Shown: positions 14,585-62,275 of the stretch, piece after piece
Layout: each line of letters starts with the position of its first letter
Numbering within the stretch: position 1 is the stretch's first letter
Source: Sipunculus nudus
Lineage: Eukaryota > Annelida > Sipuncula > Golfingiida > Sipunculidae
Assembly (NCBI GenBank): GCA_026874595.1
Contig: CM049313.1
Coordinates: forward strand, 36,344,159 to 36,408,158
Length of the DNA stretch: 64,000 bases
Reading direction: 5' to 3'
Notes under the pieces: generated by a model
Told to the model about the DNA's origin: nothing
The model's input: the letters and a program-made list of their open reading frames with translations, nothing else
The model's database searches: none
Made by a program: the position numbers and the translations under genes

Positions 14585-14699
14585 AACCAAGGGACCCATG
14601 GGTCACAGCGCTCGGCTGAAGTTTGAAATTTTTGCAAATGCAAAATATTCTACTGTAATGTTTTCCATTTATACAAGCATATGAGAAGCTAAGAGGCCC

Positions 14700-15825
14700 T
14701 CCTACTTTGTTATAGCAAAGTTTTAAATATATGATTGCAAAACTAATACTCTGACAAGACTGTCATGAAGAAAAACAGTAAACATTTTGAGATACTGTGA
14801 TGCATATGAAAAATTTACAGATGGCCAGGCAAGTGGACAGAATGGACTAATACCTTTATTTCACGTTCAAGGGAATAAGACATTAAGTTTATATTTAAAC
14901 CTATTTTTTTAGCATATCCACTTTTTCAATTAACAGTTTTTATCAGATTCATTTTTTATTTATTTACAAGTTTTATAAATTTATAATAAAAAAAATCTGA
15001 AAATATAAGTTAAAATATCAGAATTCTAAGTTGCAATCATTATTTATTTATCCAGAGTGTAGCTCATATTGGGTCATATTATGCATACACATATATTTGA
15101 TCATTTTTAAATCACAAATGTTTAAAGTGAATTTAAAAGAAAATAATGCCACAACATGGCATCTTCAAGCTTATTCCTTGAATCACCTTTGAAAAGTTTT
15201 GTACATTGGAGATTTCAGTATATGCTTAATTTTATTCACCAAAATAAAAGATTCAGTAAATCTGATAAAATAAAACCATCTTTTCAAATAAAGTATACAC
15301 ACTGTTAGTTGAATGAGGGACAAACATCATCACTGTGCTAATTACTATCTCAGCTATAATTATTTACTGGAATTAATAGTCAATTTCACACCTGGGGAAG
15401 TTTTTACTCTTTTGAAGTTAAGAATTACTTATCTGATGAACATCCACACTTTCATATAGCAATGCACCACTTTGTGGACACAATTAAATGTGCACTTTAT
15501 CACTGTAACCCTGGTGGTACAATACAAAATCTACAATGTAGCACAGCCTAGAATAAGAATGAATCAAATACAGAAAATTATAACATTCATCTAGTTTATG
15601 CACCAGCTGGGGGAGGGGGGGGGGGGAGTGCAGGGCAGAGGGGAAGCTTGCTAGTAGTGGCCAAGCTGAGCCAAGGCAAGCTGCATGGAGAGGGTTACAT
15701 AATACAAGTGAAGGCTGTACTACTAGTTGGGCCTTATGTAAACAACACTTGACATGGTATATGGAAACTTGAATAAAAGCTTCTCTTTTCAAACAATTCC
15801 TTTGAAATTACAGATTTTAAAAGAT
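14700..15825. other. Interior of E1 without recognised coding content
   Basis: AT-rich interior with an almost pure 24-bp G-rich run at 15609-15632. The section 15640-15790 aligns loosely with the linker between modules in E2 and E3 (TGTAAACAA...CATGGT...GAAACTTGAATAAA). Confidence 0.5.
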
Positions 15826-16465
15826 TAAATCCTTATGTATATATGCTGCGAAAATAAAATCAATAGTGCTTACAGGGGAAAAACGTGCCAAAGCCAAAGC
15901 TGGTCAAAATTTAAGGTATTGATTTTTTATTTATGCTAATAACTTAAAAAAATTGAAAAATTCAGACCTAATTTTGGGTTAACAATTGATGCTTGATTTA
16001 ATAAAGTTATATCCCTGAAAAAAAGTCTCCAGCTTCAGCAATTCTCATGTTAAGTGAGTAAATATATTTCCTGATTTTTAAAAAATTGCATTATATTTGG
16101 ACCTATAACTTCAAAACAATATTCAATACTGACCTAATTTTTGGTATTTTAATAGAAAATGTATGGAAGAATATGAATACTAAATATACACAAAAACAGA
16201 CCAGTGGTTTTGATTTTAAGCAGCCTTGAAGTGTAACAATTGCTTTTTTATGAAAAATTGAGGTTTTTCCTTAATGTTTCGTAGGAATGAAATCCTAGTG
16301 ACCCAATTTTTGGTATGGTAGGAGATTCTGGGGACATCTAACTGTATGTAAAGTTTTGGATTCATAGGTCTAATGGTTTCAAAACATGCCCTGTTAAAGG
16401 ACAGATGGCCGGACGGCTGGACAGCTGGATGGACGGACGGACGATGGACAAAGGACCACGACTAT

Positions 16466-16494
16466 AGCTCAGATGACTTATAGTCAGCTGAGCT
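16466..16494 (+). repeat. Terminal hairpin of E1 (module A)
   Basis: AGCTCAGATGACT and AGTCAGCTGAGCT flank a TAT loop, a 13-bp stem with one mismatch. It is followed by AAAAAA. Confidence 0.85.
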
Positions 16495-16497
16495 AAA

Positions 16498-16565
16498 AAA
16501 GAAATGGCCATTTGAAATGTCATCATGATTTTGGAAGCTCTTTCTGGACAGGTTAACACTGTCCT
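16498..16565 (+). repeat. Repeat P, right part
   Basis: AAATGGCCA..TGAAATG, then TCATGATTTTGGAAGC and CTTTCTGGACAG, align with 20890-20945 (ACATGGCCACTATAAATG, CCATTGTTTTTGCAGC, CTTTCTTCTAAACAG), restoring the homology broken at 14584. Confidence 0.65.
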
Positions 16566-16582
16566 GGGGTCGCAAAGAAAAA

Positions 16583-19383
16583 TACAGTAGAACCAAATTA
16601 CAGACACTGATGAGTCCAGACATGTTACCTGCAATACAGAGGTACCCTTAGTAGGAAGGTTTTAGATTTTGGGACCTACTTTCAAAGGACTGCCCATGGG
16701 TGGCTGTAAATAGGAGGTGCCCTTAGCAGGAAGGATTTAGATTTTGAGACCTACTTTCAAAGGACTGCCCATGGGTGGCTGTAAATAGGATGTGCCCTTA
16801 GTAGGAAGGTTTTAGATTTTGGGACCTACTTTCAAAGGACTGCCCATGGGTGGCTGTAAATAGGAGGTGCCCTTTGCAGAAAGGTTTTAGATTTTGGGAC
16901 CTACTTTCAAAGGACTGCCCATGGGTGGCTGTAAATAGGAGGTGCCCTTAGTAGGAAGGTTTTAGATTTTGGGACCTACTTTCAAAGGACTGCCCATGGG
17001 TGGCTGTAAATAGGAGGTGCCCTTAGCAGGAAGGTTTTAGATTTTGGGACCTACTTTCAAAGGACTGCCCATGGGTCGCTGTAAATAGGAGGTGCCCTTA
17101 GCAGGAAGGTTTTAGATTTTGGGACCTACTTTTAAAGGACTGCCCATGGGTGGCTGTAAATAGGAGGTGCCCTTAGCAGGAAGGTTTTAGATTTTGGGAC
17201 CTACTTTCAAAGGACTGCCCATGGGTCGCTGTAAATAGGAGGTGCCCTTAGAAGGAAGGTTTTACATTTTGGGACCTACTTTCAAAGGACTGCCCATGGG
17301 TGGCTGTAAATAGGAGGTGCCCTTAGTAGGAAGGTTTTAGATTTTGGGACCTACTTTCAAAGGACTGCCCATGGGTGGCTGTAAATAGGAGGTGCCCTTA
17401 GTAGGAAGGTTTTAGATTTTGGGACCTACTTTCAAAGGACTGTCCATGGGTGGCTGTAAATAGGAGGTGCCCTTAGCAGGAAATTTTTAGATTTTGGGAC
17501 CTACTTTCAAAGGACTGCCCATGGGTGGCTGAAATAGGAGGTGCCCTTAGTAGGAAGGCTTTAGATTTTGAGACCTACTTTCAAAGGACTTCCCATGCGT
17601 GGCTGTAAATAGGAGGTGCCCTTAGTAGGAAGGTTTTAGATTTTGGGACCTACTTTCAAAGGACTGCCCATGGGTGGCTGTAAATAGGAGGTGCCCTTAG
17701 CAGGAAGGTTTAAGATTTTGGGACCTACTTTCAAAGGACTGCCCATGGGTGGCTGTAAATAGGAGGTGCCCTTAGTAGGAAGGTTTTAGATTTTGGGACC
17801 TACTTTCAAAGGACTGCCCATGGGTGGCTGTAAATAGGAGGTGCCCTTAGTAGGAAGGTTTTAGATTTTGGGACCTACTTTCAAAGGACTGCCCATGGGT
17901 GGCTGTAAATAGGAGGTGCCCTTAGCAGGAAGGTTTAAGATTTTGGGACCTACTTTCAAAGGACTGCCAATGGGTGGCTGTAAATAGGAGGTGCCCTTAG
18001 TAGGAAGGTTTTAGATTTTGGGACCTACTTTCAAAGGACTGCCCATGGGTGGCTGTAAATAGGAGGTGCCCTTAGTAGGAAGGTTTTAGATTTTGGGACC
18101 TACTTTCAAAGGACTGCCCATTGGTGGCTGTAAATAGGAGGTGCCCTTAGAAGGAAGGTTTTAGATTTTGGGACCTACTTTCAAAGGACTGCCCATGGGT
18201 GGCTGTAAATAGGAGGTGCCCTTAGCAGGAAGGTTTAAGATTTTGGGACCTACTTTCAAAGGACTGCCCATGGGTGGCTGTAAATAGGAGGTGCCCTTAG
18301 CAGGAAGGTTTTAGATTTTGGGACCTACTTTCAAAGGACTGCCCATGGGTGGCTGTAAATAGGAGGTGCCCTTAGCAGGAAGGTTTTAGATTTTGGGACC
18401 TACTTTCAAAGGACTGCCCATTGGTCGCTGTAAATAGGAGGTGCCCTTAGTAGGAAGGTTTTACATTTTGGGACCTACTTTCAAAGGACTGCCCATGGGT
18501 GGCTGTAAATAGGAGGTGCCCTTAGTAGGAAGGTTTTACATTTTGGGACCTACTTTCAAAGGACTGCCCATGGGTGGCTGTAAATAGGAGGTGCCCTTTG
18601 TAGGAAGGTTTTAGATTTTGGGACCTACTTTCAAAGGACTGTCAATGGGTGGCTGTAAATAGGAGGTGCCCTTAGCAGGAAGGTTTTAGATTTTGGGACC
18701 TACTTTCAAAGGACTGCCCATGGGTGGCTGAAATAGGAGGTGCCCTTAGTAGGAAGGTTTTAGATTTTGAGACCTACTTTCAAAGGACTTCCCATGCGTG
18801 GCTGTAAATAGGAGGTGCCCTTAGTAGGAAGGTTTTAGATTTTGGGACCTACTTTCAAAGGACTGCCCATGGGTGGCTGTAAATAGGAGGTGCCCTTAGC
18901 AGGAAGGTTTAAGATTTTGGGACCTACTTTCAAAGGACTGCCCATGGGTGGCTGTAAATAGGAGGTGCCCTTAGTAGGAAGGTTTTAGATTTTGGGACCT
19001 ACTTTCAAAGGACTGCCCATGGATGGCTGTAAATAGGAGGTGCCCTTAGTAGGAAGGTTTTAGATTTTGAGAACTTCTTTCAAAGGACTGCCCATGGGTG
19101 GCTGTAAATAGGAGGTGCCCTTAGTAGGAGGGTTTTAGATTTTAAGACCTACTTTCAAAGGACTGCCCATGGGTGGCTGTAAATAAGAGGTGCCCTTAGT
19201 AGGAAGGTTTTAGATTTTGGGACCTACTTTCAAAGGACTTCCCATGCGTGGCTGTAAATAGGAGGTGCCCTTAGTAGGAAGGTTTTAGATTTTGAGACCT
19301 ACTTTCAAAGGACTGCCCATGGGTGGCTGTAAATAATAGGTGCCCTTAGTACAGAGGTGGCCACGAGGAGAGGTTCCACTATA
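16583..19383. mobile_element. Terminal-inverted-repeat element carrying a 36-copy, 75-bp array
   Basis: The left end TACAGTAGAACC (16583-16594) is mirrored at the right end by GGTTCCACTATA (19372-19383), reverse complement TATAGTGGAACC, with 10 of 12 positions identical. Next to both ends lies an ACAGAGGT box (about 16635 and 19361). The interior is a tandem array. No transposase is present. This resembles the known class of non-autonomous DNA elements with internal tandem repeats described in bivalves and other invertebrates. A TA target duplication is possible but cannot be told from the flanking TA repeats. Confidence 0.7.
16641..19338 (+). repeat. 75-bp tandem array, exactly 36 monomers
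   Basis: Monomer landmarks in order: GGTGCCCTTAGTAGGAAGG, TTTTAGATTTTGGGACC, TACTTTCAAAGGACTGCCC and ATGGGTGGCTGTAAATAGGA. The span is 2,698 bp, that is 36 x 75 minus 2, matching two 1-bp deletions in GGCTGAAATAGG variants at about 17530 and 18729. These two variants are 1,199 bp apart (16 monomers) and each is followed one monomer later by the rare TTCCCATGCGTGG form, so a 16-monomer higher-order duplication exists. Monomers are very similar, implying recent homogenisation. Confidence 0.95.
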
Positions 19384-19389
19384 TATATA

Positions 19390-20585
19390 TTATACTTATT
19401 TACATCATTTAAAATTACCAAGTTTCTTCCTTTGATAAAAGCTAATTTGTAGTGAAGAACAAAATTAATATGAAAGAAATTTCACCAAAAATTAGGTGGA
19501 CAAGGGTGTTGGAACTGAGTAAAACTGTACCTGAAATCAGCAGAGCTTTGTGTTAGTTCTTGATAATTAATATCAACACACTGACTTGTAAATCTCATAT
19601 GCTGATAAAAAAATACTGCACCTTTCATGAAACAGAGAATGCCTCATACACAGGATTGGGTGGATAATTGCAAATGTTATAATAATTGCAGATGTTTTGG
19701 CCACAAACAAATCAAAAAGTTTTTATTTTACACACTAGATGGCAGCATCATACAGACTGTATTTTGGCCAGGGTACCATGTTTGATAAGTCCAACAAGCC
19801 AACTGCACTCGCCTACACTTAAAAGTCTCTGTAGAGAGAGCAACCATATTAAATAACTCCTAATACAAAATAGTGAAAATTCTGTCTGCCAAATCTCAGG
19901 AACAGATTACATGATCATATCTTAAAGCTAGCAGATAAAATCATCTAGACAAACATCTTGGGTTGGCAGGAGCATGTTCTCCAAGTCCTCTCTTGGTAGG
20001 CCTGTCCCCTGTATCTGCCACTGTCTCTAGAATGAATATGCAGTAAACCAATATGACAAGAATAATTTCATGATTAAGCCTCCTGGGTTTCTGGTTGAAA
20101 GGTATATAGTGAAGGCAATAAGTGAGCTGTATACTGAATGTCCGGACAAGGGTCTTCCTTATGTACCCACTATGGAATTTCCTAATTCAATGTTAAATGT
20201 AGTGGAGCTGGGATATGCGCCTTTCCACACATTTCTAACCTGAGCCTCTTGTCCCATTGCAGACTTTAAGGTCATGTACACCCTCTTAGCTGTAGATTGA
20301 GGAGATTAATATGTTTTTTTTTATACTAAGATACTGCATGAGATGTGAAACCAGAACAGTCATGGATGACAAAATAGGCTCCTTTTTCCATGTTGACTGC
20401 CAGGAGGATGGAGTTTTTGCATTTTTCCTTTACAAAAATTTTTCAGTTGACCTGACTGAAATTGGCTATCATCTTCTTTACACATAAGTGTAAAGTGAAC
20501 TGCAGTTAAATCTCTGTCTATAAGTTTTGAAAAAAAGGTAGATTTGAAATAGGGCAATAGTTCTTCAAGCATTCACTATCCCTGT
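19390..20585. other. Unassigned sequence
   Basis: No exon, RNA gene or clear repeat recognised. A CTCF-like motif at 19731-19746 is listed separately. A 70-codon minus-strand ORF at 20360-20572 lacks any family signature. Confidence 0.5.
19731..19746 (+). promoter_or_regulatory. CTCF-like motif
   Basis: CACACTAGATGGCAGC matches the CTCF core except for the first C; it is almost identical to 12704-12717. Confidence 0.4.
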
Positions 20586-20589
20586 CCAC

Positions 20590-20950
20590 CTGGTTTTTTT
20601 TTTATAATCTTTTTTAAATTGCACTTAAGCTTACCTGTATTAACCTCAGAGGCAAATCTGACAGATGTATTGGGATTATCTAACAGCAGAATAATACACT
20701 GCCATGTATGAATTTCATATTATTAAATCAGAAAGAAAATTGACTGTAACATATGTACGGTCTTGCTATGTAGCAGTGACAAGCTAAGCTGACAATCATA
20801 AACTACATCCATTTAACAACTCACAGTGGTATATGTATGTGGCACTTTTGTTGCATCACATACACTTCCCTCCAACATAATATGGATAAACATGGCCACT
20901 ATAAATGACGCCATTGTTTTTGCAGCCCTTTCTTCTAAACAGATCAATAA
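20590..20950 (+). repeat. Repeat P, uninterrupted copy (empty site for E1)
   Basis: Aligns to 14270-14584 and 16498-16560 without the 1.9 kb between them. The junction is at about 20883-20890 (AATATGGATAAACATGGCC). Confidence 0.7.
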
Positions 20951-21287: not shown

Positions 21288-21289
21288 CT

Positions 21290-23419: not shown

Positions 23420-24835
23420 CTTCTTTTTAGTGTTTGCACAGATAAACTCTGAGCTATAGGGCTCTGAAGTACCCCCCAGAATAACTGAAATTTGATACAA
23501 AAGCTCAAGTATCTGAACAACTATAGCATTGATCTCCATGATTCTTTGCATGGAGATTGTTCATGGAATGTTTCATCAGTTTCTGCAGTCTGGTGGCGCC
23601 ACCTGTATTTTTTTCAATTTTTATGAATATTTTTCTCTATTTTTGAGACCTCATAAGATGCGGTCATCAGTTAACAGGGCACAAATAGTAACGACTTGAC
23701 ATAGGCCCAAGAAAAGTCTCCTTGGAAACCTGAAATTAGGTCTCTTTTACCCATTAACTTTGAGCTATGGGGCTCCAAAGTACCCCTCCCCCCTCAGAAT
23801 TATGGAAAATTTTATACAAAAGGTCAAGTATCTGAACAACTATTGCATTGATCACAATGATCCTTTGCATGCATATTGATCATGGAGTGTTTCTTCAGTT
23901 CCTGATGACTGCGGGTGCCACCTGGATTTTTAATAGAAAATTTACAAATTTTTTCTCAATTTTTGAGACCTTCAAAGATATGGTTGTCTGTTAGCAGGGC
24001 ACAAATGGTTAAATTTGGACCTAGAATCTTCTTTCTTGACATCCAAGGAGGTCCATGAAAAATCTCCATGGAAACTTGAAATTAGGTCTCTGTTACTCAT
24101 ATCCTCTGAGCTATGGAGCTCAGAATTACTCCCCCCCCCCCCCCCCAGAATAATTAAAAATTTGTTACAAAAGCTCCAGTATCTGGACAACTGATGCATT
24201 GATCACCGTGATTCTTTGCATGCATATTCATCAAGGACTGTTTCATCAGTTCCTGCAGACTGGTTGTGCCAAGGGGATTTTTTTTTTTAATTTTTATGCA
24301 TTTTTTCTCTATTTTTTAGACCTTCAAAGATGCAGTGGTCTGTTAACAGGGTACAAATCATAACCATTCAACCTAGAATCTTCTAATTAAAAATGCAGAG
24401 ACATCAATGAAAAATCTCCTTGGAAATCTGAAATTAGGTCTCTGTTACCCATATCATTTGAGCTATTGGGCTTGTAAGTACCCTTCAGTAAAATTAAACA
24501 TTTTATATAAAACCTCAAGTATCTGAACAACTATAAAATTGATCACCATGATTTTTTGCATGCACATTCATAATGGAGTGCTCTACCAGTTCTTGCAGTC
24601 TGGTGGTATCACCTGAATTTTTTCAGATTTTTACGCATTTTCTTGAGACCTTCAAAGATGTGGTTGTCTGTTAACAGAGCATGAAATGTTCCATTGAACC
24701 TTGAATCTTCTAACTTGACATCCAGGGAGGTCCATGAAAATATCCTTGGAAACCTGAAATTAGGTCTCTGTTACCCATATCCTCTGAGCTATGCTTACGT
24801 TGAATGGGGATACCACCTACAGAATTTGGCATTGA
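23420..24835 (-). repeat. Degenerate ~310-350-bp tandem repeat (E5 interior)
   Basis: The marker GAGCTATRGGGCT recurs at about 23452, 23763, 24109, 24460 and, truncated, at 24786 (spacings 311, 346, 351, 326). Each unit also contains TGATCACNATGATTCTTTGC, a GACCTTCAAAGATG segment, TCTGTTAACAGGGCACAAAT and GAAACCTGAAATTAGGTCTC. A C-rich run expands to about 18 bases at 24130-24148 in one unit. Units resemble the element at 61.45-62.28 kb. Confidence 0.85.
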
Positions 24836-24905
24836 TAAAATTCCTTTTCTGAATGTGTTCCTAGTCAGCTGAGCCTCATGACCCCTGGGTCATTTGTTTC
24901 TTTAC
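24836..24905 (-). mobile_element. Terminal module B of element E5
   Basis: GGGGATACCACCTACAGAAT, then TAGTCAGCTGAGCCTCATG and ACCCCTGGGTCATTTGT. Reverse-complemented, the end reads ACAAATGACCCAGGGGTCA..GGCTCAGCTG, matching the left end of E1-E3. The far end (module A) was not found, so E5 is truncated or more diverged. Confidence 0.65.
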
Positions 24906-27058: not shown

Positions 27059-27692
27059 TATATCATCAGATGCCCCTGTACCAAAACATTATTGACATTT
27101 CAATTTTGATCAAGCAATGGAAATAAATGATTAACATTTAGTAATATATAGTCTTTCAGTGGCATGTATAATTAGGAGTTAGGTAAGGTGAAACATCTTT
27201 ACCTGTAATCAAAAACTACATCTGACAGGCCAATCACTGAATGGTGAAACCAACATAGGTTTAAAAACAGAGACAGAATCAATGGGACAAAAAACAAGTG
27301 ACCTATGGGTCACGGCGCTCAACTGTTATATATGATAAAAAAAAATGATTTTAAAATGAGGCACATGCTGGTTTTGTGTGGTAATAAATATAAGCTTTAT
27401 TATGAGTTGTTGGTGTTTAGCTTATGTATGATTTTGATAGTATCTTTGGAGACAGGGAAGAGGATTGATTTCATTTATTTTATTAACAAATGGAGTACTA
27501 TACTGTCACACAGATTTTGACTTGGCAATATAACTTATAAGCAGAACATATAATATAAGAGTTTAACTATTTATTAAAAAAATTACAAATATTGTCCCAA
27601 ATATGATTTTAATTAAAAATAATAAGAGAATCATATGATTTTAAAAAATTAAATATAACTGAAATGATCATTAAAATAATATTAAAGAATAT

Positions 27693-27714
27693 ATTCATGA
27701 ATGCATTCATGAAT
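27693..27714. repeat. Perfect 22-bp palindrome in E2
   Basis: ATTCATGAATG followed by its own reverse complement. The equivalent site in E3 (about 36352) has a substitution that breaks symmetry. Confidence 0.85.
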
Positions 27715-30066
27715 ACATTTTGAAAGTATTTGCACTGGTATTCATATACTTTCATTTTTACCTGAATTCCCATTCTTTATGCAAAAAATTTTATAATGGA
27801 GTACATATTCATATTCGTATTTAAATACAATTGCAAAGTATTCACACCATGTCTGGTATTTATTCAGTTTTCACCAAACAGTGATGTTGAGAATCCAGAA
27901 TATACAAAATTCACACATTTAAATAATGATCATAAGTATCTGGTTTTATGGCTTTTATTTATATTAAAAAAAAAATAAATGTAATATATTCATTTTGGAC
28001 TAAGTTCACATCAATGTACACACTAGACACAGTAGGAATCTAGATTAATATTATCAACTGCATCTTTGTCTATCATTAATTTCCTTCATATGATCCCTAA
28101 TGATTAGTAATGAATAATATGATTTACTTTTTTATCATTAAAATTGAACTGAAAAAATACCATAGGTGACTGCATGGTGATATTTGGAATATGTGACATT
28201 CTATCCATTGATACAAGATTCTTATATCATCCACCGCCGATTCTCAGGTGATCTTCTCTCCTGCAATATTCTAAATTGACATATTTTACATATAATAATT
28301 AACACACTGAGAAAAATAATTATTTTTTCCTGTACGAATTCAAGTAGACATTACGGTATGTGACATTCTATCCATCAATACCAGATTCTTATATCATCAG
28401 TAACTGCAAGTTAATTTCCTGTTATTATAAACTAACAAATTCCTTTTCTATTTTATCTTTAATTTGTTATTAAAAACCAATAAATTTATTAATTTATTGT
28501 TTATTGTTATTTTGTTGGTCAAAACTACTAGATGAGTTGGGTTGGACACCTGGATCAACTGTGGCTGTCCATAAGCTGCCTGGCTGCCCTAGTGTATGTC
28601 TCGCCTCAAGCATGCATAATTTGCTGAGAGTTCAACAATGTCAACATACAGGTGACTCAAGAGGAGCTGGAGAGAGCCAAGGTCTGACATGGTATCATAA
28701 AAACATTAATAAAAGCTAAAATTTTTGGCCAATTTCTTTCAGCTTTCTAAACTACAAAGCTGAAATCCTTATGTGTGCATGATATGAAAATTATATCAAC
28801 AGTGCTCACAGGAAACAAACGTGCAATGGTCAAAGTTGGGCAAAATTTAAGGTACTAATTTTATATTTATACTAATAACTTATAAAATTTGAAAAATTCA
28901 GAACTAATTTTGGGTATTCAATTGAATCTTGATTAAATAATGTTACATCCCTCACAAAAAATCTCTAGCTTCAGCAATCCCCTTGTTAAGGGAGTAAATA
29001 TATTTCTTGATTTTGTGTATTATGTTAGGGCCCATAACTAAAAACAGTTATGCAATACTGACATAATTTTTGGCATGTGCATAGAGAATGTATAGAAAAA
29101 ATATGTATATTTTATATGATTAAAGTCAGATCAGTGGTTTTCATATTAGGCAGTCTTGAAGTGTAACAATGGGTTTTTAATGGAAAAATGAAGTTTTTCA
29201 TTAATATCTCGAAGGTATTAAGTCCTAGTGACCAAATTCTTGGCATGGTAGGGGATTTTGGAAACATCTAATTGTATACCAAATTTTAGGAACTGAGAGA
29301 TGAAGCTGGGGAGCTGAGCTCTTGCAAACTGCATAACACTAGCTTGATGTAAACAATATAATACATGGTGCTTGAAAACTTAAATAAAATCTACAGTTTT
29401 TGATAAACTGGTTTCAAATTTTTGGTGTTAACAGACAAAATGCTAACAAAAACATGCTGTGAAAATTAAATCCACAGTACTTTCAGGAAAAAAACGTGCC
29501 ATGGTCAAAGTTGGGCAAAATTTAAGGTACCCATTTTTTATTTTTGTTAATATTTAAAAATTTTTTTAAAATTTTGATCTTAGTTTGTGTATACAATTTA
29601 ATTTTGATTAATTAAAGTTATATTACTAGAAAAAAAGTCCATAGCTTTAACACGTTTTGTGTTAAGTGATCAAATATCTTTCCTGATTTTTTACAAAATG
29701 CATTATGTTTGGGCCCATAACTTTTTTAAATTATATAATACAGACATAATTTCTGGCATGTATATAGGAAATATATAGAGGAATATTTATGGTAAATATG
29801 AGGAAAAACAGATGAGTGGTTTTGATATGAGGCCGTCCTGAAGTGTGGAAATAGGTTTTAAATAAAAAATTGAGGTTTTTCCTTAATTTCTCATAGGAAC
29901 GAAGTCGCAAAGACCTAGTTTTCGGCTTGGTAGGAGATCTTGGGGACATCTAACATTATGCCGAATTTTGGATTCCTAGGTCTTACGGTTTCAAAATGTG
30001 CCACATCTATGGACGGACTGACTGACAGACGGACGGACGGACAGACGGACAATGAACCACGACTAT

Positions 30067-30095
30067 AGCTCAGATGACTTATAGTCAGCTGAGCT
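30067..30095 (+). repeat. Terminal hairpin of E2 (module A)
   Basis: AGCTCAGATGACT-TAT-AGTCAGCTGAGCT, a 13-bp stem with one mismatch, identical to that of E1. Confidence 0.85.
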
Positions 30096-30104
30096 AAAAA
30101 TACA

Positions 30105-35945: not shown

Positions 35946-35952
35946 TCTTCAA

Positions 35953-38519
35953 ACAAGGGACCTATGGGTCACGGCGCTCAGCTGTTATATATGATAAAAA
36001 ATATGATTTAGAAATGAGGCACATGCTGGTTTTATGTGGTAAAAAAATAAGCTGTATTATGAGTTGTTGTTGTTTAGCTTATGTATGATTTTAAAAGTAG
36101 CTTTGGAGACAGGGCAGAGGATTGATTTCACTTATTTTATTAACAAATGGAGTGCTATTGTCATACAAATTTGGACTTGGCCATATAACTTATAAGCAGA
36201 ACATATAATATAAGAGTTTAACTATTTATTAAAAAAAATTACAAATATTGTCCCAAATATAATTTTTATTAAAAATAATAAGAGAATCGTATGATTTTTA
36301 AAAATAAAATATAACTGAAATGATTATTAAAATAATATTAATGAATATATTCATGAATGCATTCATTAATACATTTGGAAAGTATTTGCACTGGTATTCA
36401 TATACTTTCATTTTTACCTGAATTCCCATTCTTATGAAAGAAATTTTATCATGGAGTACATATTCATATTTGTATTTAAATACAGTTGCAAAGTATTCGC
36501 ACCATGTCTGGTATTTATTCAGTTTTCATCAAACAATGATGTTGACAATCCAGAATATACAAAATTCACACATTTAAATAATGATCATAAGTACCTGGTT
36601 TTATGGCTTTTATTTATATTAAAAAAAATAAATGTAATATATTCATTTTTGACTAAGTTCACATCAATGTACACACTAGACACAGTAGGAATCTAGATTA
36701 ATATTATCAACTGCATCTTTGTCTATCATTAATTTCCTTCATATGATCCCTAATGATAAGTAATGAATAATATGATTTACTTTTTTATCATTAAAATTTA
36801 TCTGATATTACCATAGGTGACTGCATGGTGTTATTTGGAATACATGACATTCTATCCATCGATACAAGATTCTTATATCATCAGTAACTGCAAGTTAATT
36901 TCCTGTTATTATCAACTAACAAATTCCTTTTCTATTTTTCTTTAATTTGTTTTAAAAATCAATAAAAATTTATTAATTTATTGTTTATTGTTATGTTGTT
37001 GGTTAAAACTACTAGATGAGTTGGGTTGGATACCTGGATCAACTGTGGCTGGCCATAAGCATCCTGGCTGCCCCAGTTTATGCCTCGCCTCAAGCATGCA
37101 TAATTTGCTGAAAGTTCAACAAGGTCAACATACAGGTGACTCAAGAGGGGCTAGAGAGAGCCAAGGTCTGACATGGTCTCATAAAAACATTAATAAAAGC
37201 TACAATCTTATGTGTGCATGATATGAAAATTATATCAACAGTGCTCACAGGAAACAAACGTGCCATGGTCAAAGTTGGGCAAAATTTAAGGTACAAATTT
37301 TATATTTATACTATAACTTGTAAAATTTGAAAAATTCAGAACTAATTTTGGGTATTCAATTGAATCTTGATTAAATAATGTTACATCCCTCACAAAAAAT
37401 CTCTAGCTTCAGCAATCCTCTTGTTAAGGGGGTAAATATATTTCTTGATTTTTTACAAAGTGCACTATGTTTGGGCCCATAACAATTATGCAATACTGAC
37501 ATCATTTCTGGCATTTGCATAGAGAATGTATAGAAAAATATGTATATTATATATGATTAAGGTCAGATCAGTGGTTTTCATATTAGGCAGTCTTGAAGTG
37601 AAACAATGGGTTTTTAGTGGAAAAAATGAAGTTTTTCATTAATATCTTGAAGGTATTAAGTCCTAGTGACCAAATTCTTGGCATGGTAGGGGATTTTTGA
37701 GACATCTAATTGTATGCCCAATTTTAGGATCTGAGAGCTGAAGCTGGGGAGCTAAGCTCTTGCAAACTGCATGAAACTAGCTTGATGTAAACAATGTTAC
37801 ATGGTGCTTGAAAACTTGAATAAAATCAACAGTTTTTGATCAACTGGTTTCAATTTTTTGGTGTTAACAGACAATATGCTAACAAAAACATGCTGTGAAA
37901 ATTAAATCCACAGTACTTACAGGAAAAAAAACGTGCCATGGTCAAAGTTGGGCAAAATTTAAGGTACCAATTTTTTATTTTTGTTAATATTTTAAAAAAA
38001 TTTTAAAGATTTTGATCTTATTTTGGGTATACAATTTAATTTTGATTAATTAAAGTTATATTACTGAAAAAAAGTCCATAGCTTTAACATGTTTTGTGTT
38101 AAGTGATCAAATATCTTTCCTGATTTTTTTCAAAATGCATTATGTTTGGGCCGATAACTTTTTTAAATTATGTAATACAGACATAATTTCTGGCATGTAC
38201 ATAGGAACTATATAGGGGAATATTTATGGTAAATATGAGGAAAAAAAATGAGTGGTTTTGATATTAGGCAGTCCTGAAGTGTAAAAATAGGTTTTTAATA
38301 ACAAATTGAGGTTTTTCCTTAATTTCTCAAAGGAACGAAGTCACAAAGACCCAGTTTTTGGCTTGGTAGGAGATCTTGGGGACATCTAACATTATGCCGA
38401 ATATTGGATTCCTAGGTCTTATGGTTTCAAAACGTGCCACATCTACGGACAGACAGATGGACGACGGACAATGGACCACGACTATAGCTCAGATGACTTA
38501 TAGTCATCTGAGCTAAAAA
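35953..38519 (+). mobile_element. Element E3, 2.6 kb, close relative of E2
   Basis: Begins ACAAGGGACCTATGGGTCAC then GGCGCTCAGCTG and ends with module A. It is collinear with E2: TGAGGCACATGCTGGTTTT, TATTTAAATACA, TGACTGCATGGTG, GGTTGGATACCTGGATCAAC and the double ~675-bp module (TGGTCAAAGTTGGGCAAAAT at about 37265 and 37940). The main indel relative to E2 is loss of about 200 bp. No coding capacity. Confidence 0.82.
38486..38514 (+). repeat. Terminal hairpin of E3, perfect 13-bp stem
   Basis: AGCTCAGATGACT-TAT-AGTCATCTGAGCT pairs without mismatch. The mismatch in E1 and E2 lies at the T/G position of the right arm. Confidence 0.9.
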
Positions 38520-38880
38520 AGTTTGAACGCTGAAAACTGTGACCTGAACTACTCAGTCAGAACTGAAAAAGTTTTACAGGGCAAATAAAGTTCCACCAAA
38601 AACCTTGTAACAGAAAAGAAAGGGTTACAGGGCTGTAGCTGAAGGTAGACAAACATACAGATCTCTGTCTCATTAAGCCTTTTCACCAATATCATTTATT
38701 TGTTAATTAAACCTGAAACCACCCAATTAGAGCTATAAATGCAAAATGACACCTGAGAGAACAGTTTTTCCTGAAACTGAAACTTCCCTGCTTTTGAGTA
38801 TGGCAAAACTAAAAGTAATTAAGTCAAGTGATTAACTACAGCCCTGTAACCCAAAATACTTGAATAACTTTTTTCTTATT
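38520..38880. other. Unassigned sequence
   Basis: No feature recognised. Confidence 0.45.
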
Positions 38881-39525: not shown

Positions 39526-40207
39526 TTAACAACAACAAAGTTTATTGTGGAAAGGCCTCATGGCCCAAAGTACAAATAACTTAAGTAACATATAAATATA
39601 CACAAGTTTGCCATTGCTTTCTGCCAATATGTGTTAAATCATGTTAAAAGATATATATGTCGTAGAAAAGAATAGCACTGATATACACAAATGAAAATAT
39701 ATATGTGTACAATTATCAATTATACATAAAATTACAGTATTCAGTGAATTATTGATTAAAGTACTACTTCATGGAATATTATTTTCTTAAATATTTTTCT
39801 GTCTTACTCTGTTTACCTGAAATATATACACCTAAATCATATTGTATCCTGTGATTCTGTGTTCTCAAAATCTGAATAAGCCCATATTTATTTTGTGGAA
39901 AATTCTGTATAAATGATAAAAATTTATTTCTTAAATCTTTATATCTGGAACACTTGAAAAGAATGTGGGCCTCATCTTCAATTTCATCATTCTTACAAAA
40001 TTTACAGAGTCTCATATTTACTGGAATATTACTTCTTCTGCCTACTTCAATCTCAAAATCATGGTCACTTAGTCGAAATTTTGTTAAAACCTGTCTATAG
40101 ATGTATGGGATATTATTTAAGTATCGTTCTGGTTCAATGCCTGATTTTACTTCACTATATATACTGAGTTTGGATTTTTCCATTATTTCAGATAACATCT
40201 CTTGCTG
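39526..40207 (-). mobile_element. LINE 3' fragment (C-terminal domain and 3' UTR)
   Basis: Minus strand. The ORF (40198-39779, 139 codons) has the C-terminal pattern of invertebrate LINE polyproteins: VLTKFRLSDHDFEIEVGRR, then CKFCKNDEIEDEAHILFKC, a C-x2-C...H-x4-C zinc-knuckle-like motif. About 250 bp of 3' UTR follow, ending with TTTGGGCC-ATGAGGCCTTT, CAATAAA and a short TTG tail. Everything upstream, including reverse transcriptase and endonuclease, is missing (5' truncation). The related LINE at 48.8 kb has the same knuckle and the same 3' signature. Confidence 0.85.
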
Positions 40208-40209
40208 TA

Positions 40210-40228
40210 TTTTTTTTTTTTTTTTTTT
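40210..40228. repeat. Poly-T tract at the 5' boundary of the LINE fragment
   Basis: Nineteen Ts at the point where LINE homology stops. On the minus strand this is a poly-A run, so it may be a retroposon tail, or the T-rich target of the LINE. Confidence 0.7.
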
Positions 40229-40660
40229 AATATGGTGCAGGCCTGTAGTTTCCCAAATTGATCAGTGCTGCCTTGCTTGGAGTTGGAACTTCGAGCCCTG
40301 CCTGTGCCGTCTGATCAGATCACAGAGCGTGAACAGAACAAGTCCAAAGACTCCAAGCGACAACTCTTATCGAGTTGAAGCGGCAAAATCTGATGTCTGT
40401 CTGTCCTTACCTCACGTTGTCCCATGTTCCTGGCAGCTGTACATGTAAGACTGGTCACCTGTCATGCCCACAGCACCTGACCAGCAAGTCTGACGGTGAC
40501 AGTGCTTGTCCAAGCAGCAGCAAGCTACACTGTCGGTGTAAACACACGCACGCGCACCAGACATTAGCGCCACAGACTGGAGGCCTGCTCATAAGGCAAT
40601 AAGCGCTGTGGGGCGTGAATGCTCGGTCTCTTGGGGAAACCGGAAAACGGAACAGCGAAC
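40229..40660 (-). promoter_or_regulatory. CpG-richer segment with a possible non-coding first exon
   Basis: GC and CpG content rise clearly above the surroundings (CACGCACGCGCACC, GGCGTGAATGCTCGG, CCGGAAAACGGAAC). On the minus strand ACAACGTGAG|GTAAGGAC at 40411/40410 is a strong 5' splice site. A GC-rich start plus donor could be a promoter and 5' UTR exon of a minus-strand gene, possibly the RCC1-type one. No TATA box seen. A retroposed sequence is the alternative. Confidence 0.3.
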
Positions 40661-42997: not shown

Positions 42998-44331
42998 ATA
43001 ATAAATATAAATTATATGAGACATTCGAAATCCTTCACTTAAAAAAAGTTGTGATTTATTCATGTAATGAAACTAAGACCGTGCGTTGATATTAAACGGT
43101 TAAATCTTTCTTTCTCCCATTTCTTCATCTTATTTTGCTATTCTTTATTTCGTGATGAAACTGATTATCTTTTTAAGTACAATCGTAAAGGAAATTACCA
43201 GAATTCTTGTCGCGCCCTCTAGCTATACAAGTGGAAGAATTATATGTAACACAATGAAACAAAAAGAGAAGCTCATGATTGATTGGTTGCAATATTCGAT
43301 TGTGAAGTGATACACTGGTTGGGGGGGGGGGGGGGGGATAATTATGAGACAATTTTGATCAAGTGCCTTCCATACTTACAAATGCACACTTCGGTGCTAA
43401 AAGATTCCTATTTATTAAAAAATCTCTTTCACACACACACACAAACACACACACACATATATATTGTTGTTTATCAATATGATATTCTGTTTAATAGGTT
43501 CATGTGTATAGTGCAACATGCCCGTGTCAACAAAACTTCTGTAGACCTGGATTTTTATTCCCAGGATATATCATATAAATCTCTACATGTTTATTTCACT
43601 CGTGCTATGTCTTGTATTGTATTTTTTGGTAAACTGTTTAACTATTAAAAAAGGAAAACTCATACACGCACAAAAAAATCAAAGACTTCTCGATAAGATA
43701 AGGACTGACTTATCCACGGTAAGTATATATATAGCTTAGTGTTTGTGGTACGTCCAACAGACACGTGACCTAGCATAATTACTGGTATACAGGTTAAATG
43801 ACATTGTATGCTTCGTATTATTAATATGCATTTTAGTTTATGTCATCTACCTGTATCAGATAAAAATACTTGTATTTTTATTTCACGATTTTTATCGAAA
43901 GGATCTTAGTATTGTGGCAATTTACTTTTTGGGATTACAGTTTGGATTATCTGATCTTTTGTTGTAAGTTTAATTATGTAATTTAAGGAAGATGTGGTGT
44001 GGTGTAGTGAAGTGTGGTGGCTTATATGAAATGAATGAAATTATTTTATTCAGTTACATTATTTACGGTACAAGTATAAAATATATACCACATATCACAG
44101 TACACATTGAACAAATATTTATTAATAGATCACAGTACTTAATGAATAAAACAATTTAAAAAAAATTAAAAGTAACTGAAGTATATATCACATTACATGT
44201 CACACACTATCTAAAAAGAAGATATATATAAATCAAATTACATCACTTGAGCATCATGCAACATTGTACCTGTTAACAATAACATTGAAAATTTAGCACT
44301 AAAAGGTCCTCCCAATAAAAGACTTATTTCC
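42998..44331. repeat. Tandem duplication, copy 1 (1,334 bp)
   Basis: Head-to-tail with copy 2 at 44332-45662, with no spacer. Differences that I could find are homopolymer lengths: 17 versus 13 Gs at 43321/44655 and 8 versus 9 As at 44158/45488. The junctions share the bases ATA. The content includes an ACACAC tract, a CTCF-like word and, at its right end, a copy of the 3' UTR of the neighbouring minus-strand LINE. Confidence 0.97.
43212..43224 (-). promoter_or_regulatory. CTCF-like motif (duplicated at 44546-44558)
   Basis: Reverse complement AGCTAGAGGGCGC fits the 3' part of the CTCF core (TAGAGGGCGC). Weak at its 5' side. Confidence 0.3.
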
Positions 44332-45662
44332 ATAATAAATATAAATTATATGAGACATTCGAAATCCTTCACTTAAAAAAAGTTGTGATTTATTCATGTA
44401 ATGAAACTAAGACCGTGCGTTGATATTAAACGGTTAAATCTTTCTTTCTCCCATTTCTTCATCTTATTTTGCTATTCTTTATTTCGTGATGAAACTGATT
44501 ATCTTTTTAAGTACAATCGTAAAGGAAATTACCAGAATTCTTGTCGCGCCCTCTAGCTATACAAGTGGAAGAATTATATGTAACACAATGAAACAAAAAG
44601 AGAAGCTCATGATTGATTGGTTGCAATATTCGATTGTGAAGTGATACACTGGTTGGGGGGGGGGGGGATAATTATGAGACAATTTTGATCAAGTGCCTTC
44701 CATACTTACAAATGCACACTTCGGTGCTAAAAGATTCCTATTTATTAAAAAATCTCTTTCACACACACACACAAACACACACACACATATATATTGTTGT
44801 TTATCAATATGATATTCTGTTTAATAGGTTCATGTGTATAGTGCAACATGCCCGTGTCAACAAAACTTCTGTAGACCTGGATTTTTATTCCCAGGATATA
44901 TCATATAAATCTCTACATGTTTATTTCACTCGTGCTATGTCTTGTATTGTATTTTTTGGTAAACTGTTTAACTATTAAAAAAGGAAAACTCATACACGCA
45001 CAAAAAAATCAAAGACTTCTCGATAAGATAAGGACTGACTTATCCACGGTAAGTATATATATAGCTTAGTGTTTGTGGTACGTCCAACAGACACGTGACC
45101 TAGCATAATTACTGGTATACAGGTTAAATGACATTGTATGCTTCGTATTATTAATATGCATTTTAGTTTATGTCATCTACCTGTATCAGATAAAAATACT
45201 TGTATTTTTATTTCACGATTTTTATCGAAAGGATCTTAGTATTGTGGCAATTTACTTTTTGGGATTACAGTTTGGATTATCTGATCTTTTGTTGTAAGTT
45301 TAATTATGTAATTTAAGGAAGATGTGGTGTGGTGTAGTGAAGTGTGGTGGCTTATATGAAATGAATGAAATTATTTTATTCAGTTACATTATTTACGGTA
45401 CAAGTATAAAATATATACCACATATCACAGTACACATTGAACAAATATTTATTAATAGATCACAGTACTTAATGAATAAAACAATTTAAAAAAAAATTAA
45501 AAGTAACTGAAGTATATATCACATTACATGTCACACACTATCTAAAAAGAAGATATATATAAATCAAATTACATCACTTGAGCATCATGCAACATTGTAC
45601 CTGTTAACAATAACATTGAAAATTTAGCACTAAAAGGTCCTCCCAATAAAAGACTTATTTCC
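44332..45662. repeat. Tandem duplication, copy 2 (1,331 bp)
   Basis: This copy is contiguous with the LINE body at its right side, so it is probably the original and copy 1 the duplicate, or both came from an unequal exchange. Short ORFs are duplicated with it and show no sign of being genes. Confidence 0.97.
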
Positions 45663-46211
45663 ATAGTGGACCATACTAAGATCACAGTTTACAAGACAGC
45701 GGCTGCACCTGGTATTATCACATTGCTAAGAACCAATACATCAGCCAAAAAATCAGCAATAACCTTCCTACAAATTTTAAACAGTGTATATACACAATAT
45801 TCGAGTTGTTCCATCTGTTGTAAAAGATAATTGTGACATTTTCTTTTAAAAACATTTTACTATTTTCTGTTTCGATGGCCATTGGTAAAGATCATTCCAT
45901 AGTTTAAAACTCCAGTATTTGAAAGTTTTACTGCTTTGAGTTTTAACTTCGGGAACATTATATATGATAAATTTGACCTACGAGTTCTGTAATTATGACT
46001 GACAGAAACAATATCACACAAGCAAGAAGGTGCTTTATTATGAAGAATATTTAACATGAGGTTTAGATTTAGATAGTCTACTCTATACGAGACATCAAGC
46101 CATTTTAACTTTTTTTAAAATCTGAAACTCATTACTGCTGTTTAGGAGTATAATTAAAGATGTACCGAAAAAATCTTGTTTTGAGCTGTGTGACCTATTC
46201 TTAAGCTTCTT

Positions 46212-48279: not shown

Positions 48280-48794
<515 letters not shown>

Positions 48795-49894
48795 AAATAA
48801 ATCAAATGCACAGTGGTAAATCCCCTGGACCAGATGGACTCCAGGTGGATATTTTAAAATCACTTTTAGAAATTATTTTGCCTTTATTACATACTTTATT
48901 TAATAAGATTTTCAATAAGGGATCATTTCCTGAAGAAGCGAGAAAAGCAATAATATTTCCTTTACACAAGAAGAGTTCTCAGAATGAACCTGGTAATTAT
49001 AGAGGGATATCCTTACTAAATGTTACTGGTAAAATATTTACTTAAGTTTTGAACAATAGACTTTCGCAGTTTGTTGAGGAAATGAATATTTTATCTGAAT
49101 CACAAGCTGGTTACAGGAAAGGATATTCTACAATTGACCAGGCATTTATTTTGTATATGCTTTAGTTCAAAAATAATTGGTTAAAAGAAAAGGTAGGTTT
49201 TACTGTTTATATATTGACTTAGCAAAAGCATTTGATTGTGTACAACATAATTTATTGTGGCATGTTTTATTAAAAAAAAGGCATAAATGGTAAAATATTA
49301 TGTGTTATAAAATCAATGTATTCAAAAATGCAGTCTTGTATATTAACTGAGAGTGGACTTGCAGATTATTTTGCATGTTCGGTATAGGTACCCGGCAAGG
49401 TTGTATGATAAATCCTTTATTATTTTCTTTATTTATAAATGAGTATTGTTACATGTTAGATGGAAGCGATTGTCAAGGGATATATGTAAATGGTAATCTC
49501 TCAAATTTAATGACATCGTTATTTGCAGACGATATGGTTAATTATGGATATACTGTAGGTAGACTTCAGCAACAGATTGATCTCTTACAAAAGTTTTGTG
49601 AAAATTATGGTTTCAAAATTAATACTGATAAAACTAAGATTATGGTTTATAGGAAAGATGGTCCTTTACGAAAAGTAGAAAAATGGTATTTAAAAGGTAA
49701 ACAGAAGTGGTTCCATACTACAAATATCTTGGGATTATTTTCTCCACAAAATTGTCTTGGTAAAAAACACAACAACAGCAGGTTTTACAAGCAGACAAAG
49801 CTGTATGCATGATTAAAACATTCAGCAAAAAGTGTAAATATGTAAGTACAAAACATCTCCTTTATTTGTTTGATTAAATGGTAGTGCCAATACT

Positions 49895-51732: not shown

Positions 51733-51741
51733 CTGTTCCAT

Positions 51742-52430
51742 GCACTTATCTCAGGAGTTGTTAATTGTATCAGCCTGAAATTTCGCATGTTCATAGAACT
51801 TGGTTTTCTTTATCTTGTGTAGGAGACTGATGGCGCCGTCTGATATCGTTTTTTTAGGCTTCCAGTCGCGGTTTTGCTTGGGGTGAAAATCTCTTTAATC
51901 TCAGGAGTAAGTTGCTATATCGGCTCGATATTTTGCATGTCCATCCATCGTGGATAGCTTTCTCGCACATGACAGGTTGCGCCACCTACAATTATGTATT
52001 TGTAGAATACACCCATGCAGTTATCTGATGATGTATAATGTATCAGCCTGAATGTTTGTATGTTCATAGATTTTGGATACCTTTATCTTGTTAAAGAGAT
52101 AGGTGGTGCCACTGTCAAACAATTTCATATATCGTTCATCTGTAAGTCTTTTATTTTGTTTGAAAATCACAGATATTTCAGGAGTTATTTAATTTATCGG
52201 CTTTTAATTTTGCATATCCATAAATCTAGGATATAGCAGTATCTCTTATGAAAGATAGGTGGCGCCAACTACAACCGTTTGTTGCATGCTGTCCATCTGT
52301 GTGTCTATATTTGGTGAAATAACACATATCTCTGGAGTGGTTTGATATATCATTCTTAAAGTTTGCATGTTCAAGTATCTTTGATAGCTTTATATAGATG
52401 ACTTGCGGCGCCACCTACAATATTTTTTTA
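51742..52430 (-). repeat. ~140-bp GGTGGCGCCACC repeats, opposite orientation, right block
   Basis: Continues the block at 48280-48794. Units include TTATCTCAGGAGTTGTT, ATCAGCCTGAAATTTCGCATG, GGCGCCGTC, TTGCGCCACCTACAATTATG, GGTGGCGCCAACTAC and GGCGCCACCTAC. The palindrome is variably degraded. Confidence 0.8.
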
Positions 52431-55946: not shown

Positions 55947-55952
55947 CACGTG
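55947..55952. promoter_or_regulatory. E-box CACGTG
   Basis: Perfect CACGTG palindrome (bHLH-ZIP class of factors such as USF, Myc/Max) 34 bp upstream of the TATA box. A TTACGTCA half-CRE lies downstream at 55862. Confidence 0.4.
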
Positions 55953-55959
55953 ATCCTAT

Positions 55960-58142: not shown

Positions 58143-58150
58143 CTGACAAC

Positions 58151-59569: not shown

Positions 59570-59579
59570 CTGACAATGC

Positions 59580-61440
59580 CTCATGGCCTACAGATACACA
59601 GTCAATTGACATAAACCAAACTAATCATCTGCATTTTTAGTGTACTTTCTAACACTACCAAACATGAAGGAGGAAAGTTCCATTCCAACTCAGCATATTG
59701 GTAAATCCCTCTGCATGTTGAATTTTTTACCTCATGAATACAAGCATGGCTCTCACAGGTTACTGGGTGCAGCCAACTTGTACGCACGTACAGGAAATGA
59801 CTTGTTACCAAAGAGATGGGTTTTCAGTTTCGTTTGTGAGTTCACAAGTATTCTCTTGCATTAATGCATCATTCATAGCATAATGTTAAGATTATGGGCT
59901 CAGGCTGTTTACCACAATATAAAGGCAATATGATAGAAGACCACTGCGATGCATTCCTCGATACTGCTTGTATCATGACTCAAGAAGGCTTACCAGGCCA
60001 ATTATTATTGCCAACTGAGTCAGGTTGTCATGGCTATATTTGTCATAGATGCTTTCTAATTCTTACAAACCACTGTATGGAAGAACTAGGTTTAGCTTGG
60101 GTGTTTCAAATGTCTATATGCTGCACTGTGTTAGAAACCTAGCAGACAGATACATTCTTATCAGTGATAAAATTATGATATTTCAGCTAAAGATTGTAGT
60201 AATTAATCAGACAAAAATTTTTCTTGTACCTTTTCATAATATTTCACTGAAAAGAGTTTCTCCACATTGAAATGTTGTTTGGGGCAGGTATTGTGATTAA
60301 ACAGTGCTAATCGCTACGACCAATATGTCATTATGAGTGTGCCATGGCACTTTCCCCCAAAACCTCATGTAATGCATGCCACCCCGGTCCCCTTCAAATG
60401 TACTGCTGTGTAAGGATTGTTTGGAGCTATACAAAGTCTCACTTGCTTACAGGCCTTACTATTGCACATGCCTTGAAATGTGTGTTTCATTTTCAGGCTA
60501 TGGTTAAATGTTAAAAATGAGTGTTGATTTATTTCTCAACATTTTTGTCATTTTGAAGGGAGGGGGGAATATTATAGATAAAACCTGCTGTGTTGTGGGG
60601 TAATACTGTTGTGTAAGTCATCAAACTATAAAAAATAACAGTTCCTATTTTATATACACTGTTCAGTTTAATCCAGCTTCTTGTAAACTATGAAATCTAC
60701 CTGCAAAATCAAAGATGGCAATTTGCCACCATTATTATAACTTTGTTGCTGGAGTTTCAGTTAGCAAATACAGATTGATTTCTTGTCTTCATTGATACAA
60801 AAACTGTTCTTGAGCTGCTGTCTGTATAATGATTAAACTTGGCTTGTAATATGAAGGCTCCCATTAAATTAGAGTGAATCATCTACTGTACCTAATGCAC
60901 AATCGATACATCAGACCTAGGCTTGTTTCACTCTTTACAACTTCCACAATGCCAGTTTAATTGCACTTTCATTTTATAGATTACCATATAGTTAACCATA
61001 CATTGTTTGGATGCATTTTGGTCATTAGTTTAGTGTGTAAAAGGTTGGTCAGAGTAGTGTGAAGGGGATAAAATGTATGATAAGTACTGTTATTTGCAAA
61101 TATTTTTAGATGAACATGTATTTGCCAAATTTGGTAGGAAAAAATACTTATTAATGTCATGCTTGCTGAGTTACATTTGCCAGAAAAAGAGATTTGTTCA
61201 CAGCCAATACAGAAATAGAGATTTTTTCACAGGCAATAGAAAACTTACTGTGCTTCATATGAAAAATTAAAAAATCATTCAGAATGAGAGACAAGGGAAG
61301 ATGACCTTGACAGGCATATGAATGATAAAGAAATATTCTTGAACTGGTCAAACCAAAGTAATTTTGCCTTTGGGTACAAGATGCATTCTTTTATCACAAT
61401 ATGCACAGCATAACAACTAATAAAACAAATAAAAAATGGT
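59580..61440. other. Unassigned sequence, possibly intronic
   Basis: No exon or repeat family recognised. Lies between the candidate promoter at 53.4 kb and the start-codon exon at 62.4 kb. Confidence 0.45.
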
Positions 61441-61445
61441 ACTGT

Positions 61446-62275
61446 TTAGCACAGCTGATTGAAAGTCATGTGAGCTATAAGGATCACTCCTTGTCTGCCG
61501 TTGGTCAGTCCATCTGTCTGTCTGTTAACAGGGCACAAATTATGACCCCTAGACTTAGAAACTATTAACTGAAAAAAGGTCCATAAAAATCTCCTTGGAA
61601 ACCTGAAATTAAGTCATGGTGACCAATATTCTTTGAACTATGAACCAAAAACATGATTTTAAGCACCCTGAAAATCAGATGGGCACAAATTATATCTGCT
61701 AGCCCTAGAATGTTCCAATGTAATGTACAGGGAACTCTTGAGCAATCTCCATGGAAACCTGAAATAAGGTCATTGTTACCTATAATTTAAATGCTGCCAG
61801 CCAAAAACATCCTTGGTACTCTCTATCAAACCTGAAATAAGGTCAAGGTGACCTATATTTTGCTTGGTACCAGACAAAACATCTTGGGCGATCTCCATCA
61901 AACCTGAAATAAGGTCATGGTGACCTATATTACTGGCCAAAAACATTTTAAGCACCTTGACAGTCAGACAGGGTACAAAACTTTACTGTTGGACCTAGAA
62001 TCCTCTTTCTTGACATCCATGGAGGGAAGTCCTTCAAAAATGTACATGGTAATTTTTAGCTCAGCTGACTGCTTACAAAACGTCTAGATTTCATGGGAAT
62101 GGCTAGACATATCATTAAGAAACTTTTTCTTTTTGTTAATTTTGAAGAACTTTAATATACAGTTAAATGGGGATACTACCTACAAATTTTGGCATTCAGA
62201 AGATAAAATTCCTTTTGTTCATGTCTTTCTAGTCAGCTGAGAGTCAGGACCCATGCCATGGGTCACTCCTTATGT
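61446..62275 (-). mobile_element. Element E4, reverse orientation, related to E1-E3 and E5
   Basis: Left end TTTAGCACAGCTGATTG, AAGTCATGTGAGCTATAAGG and GTCAGTCCATCTGTCTGTC corresponds to the reverse complement of module A. The right end TAGTCAGCTGAGAGTCAGG then CCATGGGTCACTCCTTATG is module B. The interior has about four degenerate ~120-bp units (GGAAACCTGAAAT-AGGTCA-GGTGACC) shared with the repeat at 23.4-24.8 kb. Non-coding. Confidence 0.7.

Follow-up and report, generated by a model that had tools for sequence, protein, structure and literature searches.

Five dispersed elements with related ends in Sipunculus nudus are very probably non-autonomous Helentrons

Five elements with related ends

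The sequence analysed here (the window) is a stretch of 64,000 bases from Sipunculus nudus (contig CM049313.1) with a G+C content of 35.9%. It carries five dispersed repeat elements, E1 to E5, which have related ends and differing interiors and which are very probably non-autonomous Helentrons (HINEs). E1 (14585-16499), E2 (27292-30100) and E3 (35951-38521) lie on the minus strand, while E4 (about 23424-24896) and E5 (about 61443-62272) lie on the plus strand.

The relationship among the ends was assessed by leave-one-out scans, in which an end profile was built without the tested copy and then scanned against the window, with ten windows simulated by a first-order Markov model with the same dinucleotide steps serving as the control. 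Left ends were refound in four of four cases (E1, E = 4.3e-27; E2, 2.1e-29; E3, 5e-21; E5, 1.4e-10) and right ends in five of five (E1, 2.4e-6; E2, 7e-12; E3, 3.6e-13; E4, 1.4e-9; E5, 1.3e-7), so that both ends of E1 were recovered with E1 omitted. The top match in the simulated windows was E = 0.094 for the left-end profile and 0.067 for the right-end profile. Because the profiles recover omitted ends far above the best simulated-window matches, the family is real. E2 and E3 are closely related, and omitting just one of them is therefore a weak test; left-end profiles also match the opposite strand of the self-complementary left ends, at about 1e-5. A first-pass annotation of this sequence had proposed five elements with related ends, and the profiles bear this out for the right ends of all five and the left ends of four, but E4 has no clear left module. 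The conserved end words that it named are present but rarer than implied, with ACCACGACTATAGCTCAG occurring three times (E1-E3), GGACGGACGG twice (E1 and E2), and GTGACCTATGGGTCAC and GGCGCTCAGCTG once each (E2 and E3, respectively).

Anatomy of the ends

The left (5') ends of E1-E3, read on the minus strand, consist of a T-run, a subterminal inverted repeat (subTIR; AGCTCAGCTGAC, or AGCTCAGATGAC in E3), a short spacer and the inverted repeat of that subTIR (GTCATCTGAGCTATAG), after which comes a GTCC/GTCY microsatellite. In E1 the T-run, subTIR and inverted repeat occupy 16462-16499 (minus strand), and the microsatellite, located by tandem repeat detection and in the sequence itself, occupies 16399-16449 (minus strand). 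The corresponding parts of E2 lie at 30063-30100 (minus strand), with the microsatellite at 30011-30050, and those of E3 at 38482-38519 (minus strand), where a perfect 14-bp stem is followed by a GTCY microsatellite. The left end of E5 (61443-61480, plus strand) is a diverged version of the same layout, i.e. a diverged subTIR and inverted repeat followed by a GTCY microsatellite. An inverted repeat beside the 5' subTIR, together with a microsatellite, as in the Cg_HINE elements discussed below, was thus found in E1, E2, E3 and E5, and not in E4.

A hairpin had been described for this end (module A of the first-pass annotation), and it is strong in E1-E3, where the folds of -12.2, -10.6 and -14.2 kcal/mol were each equalled by none of 200 shuffles. 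This does not extend to E5 (-3.0 kcal/mol; equalled by 120 of 200 shuffles, i.e. not beyond chance) or to the left edge of E4 (-4.5 kcal/mol; 24 of 200). When the left edge of E4 was aligned locally with the left ends of E5 and E1, 0 and 1 shuffles in 1000, respectively, did as well if the start of the tandem array was included; with the array start excluded the counts were 84 and 513. The word CTATAGCTCAG at 23449 (minus strand), considered as the E4 counterpart of module A, was rejected as a left end, as it sits at the start of a tandem array whose units bear a similar word, and can at most be a worn remnant. Within E5, at 62047-62071, there is a lone left-end-like fragment, TTTTTAGCTCAGCTGACTGC (whole-window scan, E = 0.004; leave-one-out profiles, 0.023-0.055 for 62053-62071), which is perhaps what remains of an earlier or nested end.

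The right (3') ends comprise a subTIR matching the left one (CAGCTGAGC in E3 and TAGTCAGCTGAGC in E4, with variants in E1, E2 and E5) and then a palindrome, e.g. GTGACC-CATA-GGTCAC, which follows the subTIR at the same place in all five. On the minus strand, E1 has TCAGCCGAGC and a palindrome around GACC-CATG-GGTC (14591-14619), E2 has CAGTTGAGC and GTGACC-CATA-GGTCAC (27298-27325), and E3 has its subTIR and a palindrome with the core GACC-CATA-GGTC (35957-35984). On the plus strand, the subTIR of E4 is followed by ATGACC-CCTG-GGTCAT (24862-24893), and E5 has TAGTCAGCTGAG followed by GACCCATGCCATGGGTC (62230-62264). E2 (GTGACC/GGTCAC) and E4 (ATGACC/GGTCAT) differ in the outermost pair of the palindrome, with the change present on both arms. 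Past the palindrome, E2-E4 continue with (C/T)TTG and then Ts, E1 with CTTGGTT, and E5 differently.

When the consensus 5' subTIR was compared with the 3' ends, matches (and shuffles of 1000 that were as good) were 13/13 for E4 (0), 12/12 for E5 (0), 9/9 for E3 (2), 9/10 for E1 (22) and 8/9 for E2 (113). Subterminal inverted repeats at both ends are therefore a property of the set; inside any one element the match is below 11 identical bases. One further right-end-like piece, TCAGCTGAG followed by TGTCATGAC, lies at 10455-10478 on the minus strand (E = 0.0093 in the whole-window scan; 0.0097-0.061 with leave-one-out profiles). The profile scan of the window found no left end for it, and the piece is perhaps a worn sixth end.

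The polarity given here reverses that of the first-pass annotation, which had placed a 3' hairpin in module A. The hairpin of module A is formed by the 5' subTIR and its inverted repeat, and it is module B that holds the 3' palindrome. The earlier polarity left the microsatellite and the module B palindrome unexplained; read on the reverse strand, the parts follow the order published for HINEs.

Interiors and coding capacity

The interiors fall into different repeat kinds, broadly as had been described earlier. A unit of ∼670 bp is present as one copy of ∼600 bp in E1 (15736-16348) and as two copies each in E2 (28778-29287 and 29453-29969) and E3 (37217-37730 and 37889-38409), the copies being 74-79% alike within E2, within E3 and between E1 and both. 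E4 is instead built of ∼352-bp tandem units, and E5 of ∼72-bp units (61736-61931) plus E4-like segments. Between E1 and E2/E3 the left half is common, while of the right half only about the last 30 bases are. Over the last 60 bases E2 and E3 are 90% identical and the nine other pairs 56-66%. Thomas et al. (PMC4067079) delimit subfamilies by a threshold of 80% across the final 60 bases, and on that rule the five copies would represent four subfamilies. This count depends on end placement, since a BLAST alignment of 94 columns close to the right ends of E4 and E5 shows 81% identity. E2 also contains a 42-base direct repeat (28190-28398) whose copies are separated by ∼125 extra bases; in E3 it is single-copy.

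The elements appear to be non-coding, as first supposed. Their longest stop-to-stop frames are 107 (E1), 81 (E2), 108 (E3), 76 (E4) and 73 (E5) amino acids. Pfam scans of 14 open reading frames (ORFs) that lie inside the elements or overlap them returned nothing at E = 0.1 or below for 13, and none reached the cut-off. A 68-amino-acid frame in E5 matched Ketoacyl-synt_C at E = 0.01 with 16.3 bits, under the cut-off of 20.8, and this match was taken as chance. A narrow pattern resembling Rep motif 2 had no match in the six frames of the window. On the 14 scanned frames, the elements lack recognisable coding capacity, as is characteristic of HINEs.

Evidence of mobility

E2 and E3 are 90-94% identical across two long aligned parts, and this identity ends at both termini. 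In ungapped 20-base bins, 19 of 20 positions agree at each terminus, against 3-6 of 20 in the five bins outside each end; inward of the termini the ungapped count is 14-20 for two further bins and then drops through small indels. Because the two are near-identical right up to both termini while their flanks are unrelated, they appear to derive from independent insertions of the one unit rather than from local duplication.

An empty site was found for E1. Its two host flanks (14258-14584 and 16500-16545), when joined, match 20570-20933 (plus strand) in a single alignment with 70.4% identity over 382 columns (E = 1.6e-42), and the counterparts of the flanks adjoin at this paralogous site. The joint shows a small gap alone, without duplication, and the target is T-rich on the element strand (GGCCATGTTTATCCATA). 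The right flank alone scored 40, with shuffles reaching at most 35, and so beat 500 of 500. This one site, together with the T-runs at the 5' ends of E1-E3 and TGTTT in E5, indicates insertion into T-rich sequence without target-site duplication (TSD). Eight flank queries revealed no empty sites of E2-E5 in the window. A second candidate for E1 near 50906, a 36-column match of its right flank, was rejected on its score (61 against 326) and many gaps.

These results uphold the view that the elements have been mobile and, as the first-pass annotation also held, that they were probably mobilised via their ends; they are kin to Helitrons. The expectation that ends coincide at fixed positions and occur in pairs was borne out within the window for the termini of E2 and E3 and for four of the five copies, but E4 is doubtful and two weak lone end-like pieces exist.

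Comparison with known elements

The Cg_HINE elements of the oyster Crassostrea gigas are described as a 5' subTIR, inverted repeat, microsatellite, central tandem repeats, 3' subTIR and palindrome, with GTCY, GTCC or GTCK microsatellites, subTIRs normally of 11-12 bp, and T-rich insertion without TSD (Vojvoda Zeljko et al. 2020, PMC7492417). E1-E5 resemble them in part order, in the GTCY/GTCC microsatellite, in the T-rich target and in the lack of a TSD, the likeness being drawn from the published layout. Similar flanks around unrelated central repeats are likewise described for group 2 of Cg_HINE (PMC7492417). The central units differ in size, being ∼670, ∼352 and ∼72 bp here versus 138-181 bp in Cg_HINE, where the search was confined to 100-500 bp (PMC7492417).

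The account of HINE/DINE-1 elements by Thomas et al. (2014, PMC4067079) gives a comparable picture, with 12-15 bp subTIRs, a 3' palindrome, a microsatellite or tandem repeats, a TT or T-rich target and no coding capacity, and, in DINE-1, an inverted repeat near the 5' subTIR; the subTIRs of E1-E3 are shorter or less perfect than these. Pearl (CvA), DTC84 and MgE of bivalves, likened here by description, are similarly modular, with central repeats between conserved parts (PMC7492417, PMC5139131), although the Pearl repeats, at about 160 bp, differ in length from the units of E1-E5.

Identification and alternatives

The first-pass annotation had left the class unclear. Helentron-type elements are described as having subTIRs and a 3' palindrome and as inserting into T-rich targets that are left unmodified (PMC4067079). 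The end traits are seen in E1-E5 as a set and the target trait at the one empty site, and we conclude with high confidence that these elements are HINEs. The case is an ordinary one, which adds copies or subfamilies to a well-described class of animal elements, in which two conserved ends typically enclose short satellite-like arrays.

Several observations weigh against this identification. The right-end hairpins are short, and among 200 shuffles those of E2 and E5 stand out (equalled by 4 and 7), whereas those of E1, E3 and E4 do not (62, 44 and 54). The two subTIRs inside one element are imperfect, with 38, 141, 125, 897 and 32 of 1000 shuffles as good for E1 to E5, respectively. E5 is without the terminus of E2-E4, (C/T)TTG followed by TTT, and the 3' subTIR lies ∼25-40 bases from the terminus, mostly closer than the 38-60 given for mite HINEs (PMC4067079). 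E4 is a weak member whose left end is doubtful, the whole-window left-end profile giving E = 0.85 there. The sole empty site is a 70%-alike paralogue, the exact joint of which is uncertain by a few bases, and no autonomous Helentron partner was seen within the window. With several single-element subTIR and hairpin scores falling within shuffles, the case for HINEs rests on the whole set of copies, on the fixed ends of E2 and E3, and on one empty site.

Short inverted repeats at both ends and the lack of recognisable coding capacity would also suit miniature inverted-repeat elements (MITEs) mobilised by a DDE transposase, and the similarly built Pearl and DTC84 have been named MITEs (PMC5139131). 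Here, however, the repeats are subterminal, the right one has its own palindrome after it, and no duplication flanks the one empty site, that of E1; Pearl, moreover, has since been re-categorised as a non-autonomous Helentron (PMC7492417). A MITE origin is accordingly very unlikely. Canonical Helitrons have TC...CTRR ends, which Helentron-type elements lack, and are not known to carry subTIRs. The first-pass annotation had half suggested a Helitron, and the absence of coding sequence, the hairpin near an end and the lack of duplication at the sole empty site would fit one; but the elements begin with a T-run followed by AGCTC (E1-E3) and finish with (C/T)TTG followed by TTT (E2-E4) in place of TC and CTRR, and carry subTIRs at both ends, which makes this assignment highly improbable.

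Repeat units occur in all five interiors and other satellites lie nearby, as might be expected if the elements were dispersed satellite fragments, i.e. non-mobile tandem arrays that have edges in common and were distributed through recombination or segmental duplication. Defined ends, the same ends on different interiors, the unrelated flanks of E2 and E3 and the empty site of E1 all speak against such an origin, to which we give hardly any credence. Sequences outside the animal were also considered. A 21-base left-end word had no matches in viral contigs, and a 16-base word was found in 15 stretches of prokaryote contigs, versus roughly 120 expected by chance in 257 billion bases (our own arithmetic). 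The left-end profile matched five times in those 15 stretches at E = 0.1 or below (best 0.0075), which is to be expected because a left-end word had been used to select them; the right-end profile gave no match. Being fewer than expected and having no right-end match, they were taken as chance.

Other repeats in the window

Satellites of a 25-bp unit (1-3939; about 158 copies), a 75-bp unit (16639-19351; 36 copies with 95% matches, beginning about 140 bases past the E1 5' end) and a 34-bp unit (62532-64000; beginning about 260 bases past the E5 3' end and running to the window end) were observed. Tandem or dispersed units at 6973-7319, 8143-9191, 9636-10311, 13032-13745, 48575-48792 and 51738-52429 are mostly interrelated, with 9636-10311 matching itself only, and several bear GGTGGCACCAC-like words that are also found in the E4 units. 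These six possibly represent another, older element family; inspection by eye of the edges of 8143-9191, 9636-10311, 13032-13745 and 51738-52429 revealed no evident HINE ends. A head-to-tail duplication of ∼1334 bp with 99.6% identity (42998-45665) either arose very recently by tandem duplication or is an artefact of the assembly. Lastly, 49351-49809 and 39782-40261 hold reverse-transcriptase remains (Pfam RVT_1, E = 4.3e-12) and a weak zf-RVT match under the cut-off, which are probably pieces of non-LTR retrotransposons. Satellites and reverse-transcriptase remains, at this G+C content, suggest a nuclear genome of animal type.

Proposed mechanism and implications

By analogy with the family, an autonomous Helentron elsewhere in the genome would supply the Rep/helicase, which in Helentrons is fused to an endonuclease. 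The enzyme would recognise the left end, and one strand would be peeled off and copied by rolling-circle replication; copying would halt at the palindrome behind the right subTIR, and the copy would be joined into a T-rich site. Such an enzyme would need the ends alone, so that the interior could change freely and tandem units could be added or lost. In the Helitron Helraiser, the hairpin near the 3' end acts as a terminator that can be bypassed (PMC4778049), a mechanism that we infer may extend to Helentrons.

A more tentative and rather unlikely reading is that the five copies record module swapping, with one left end and a shared 670-bp unit placed on two unrelated right halves (E1 versus E2/E3) and related ends placed around two unrelated repeat kinds. 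Its source could be repeated bypass of the 3' end and re-capture of a right end during Helentron rolling-circle replication. If this were true, the elements would continually generate new end combinations and new satellites.

For the family, the present data suggest that central units of HINEs can reach about 670 bp and so exceed the 100-500 bp covered by the oyster survey. For Sipunculus nudus, a puzzling repeat family receives a plain label, the main use of which is in annotation: as queries, the end modules would locate members of the family and perhaps the autonomous partner as well.

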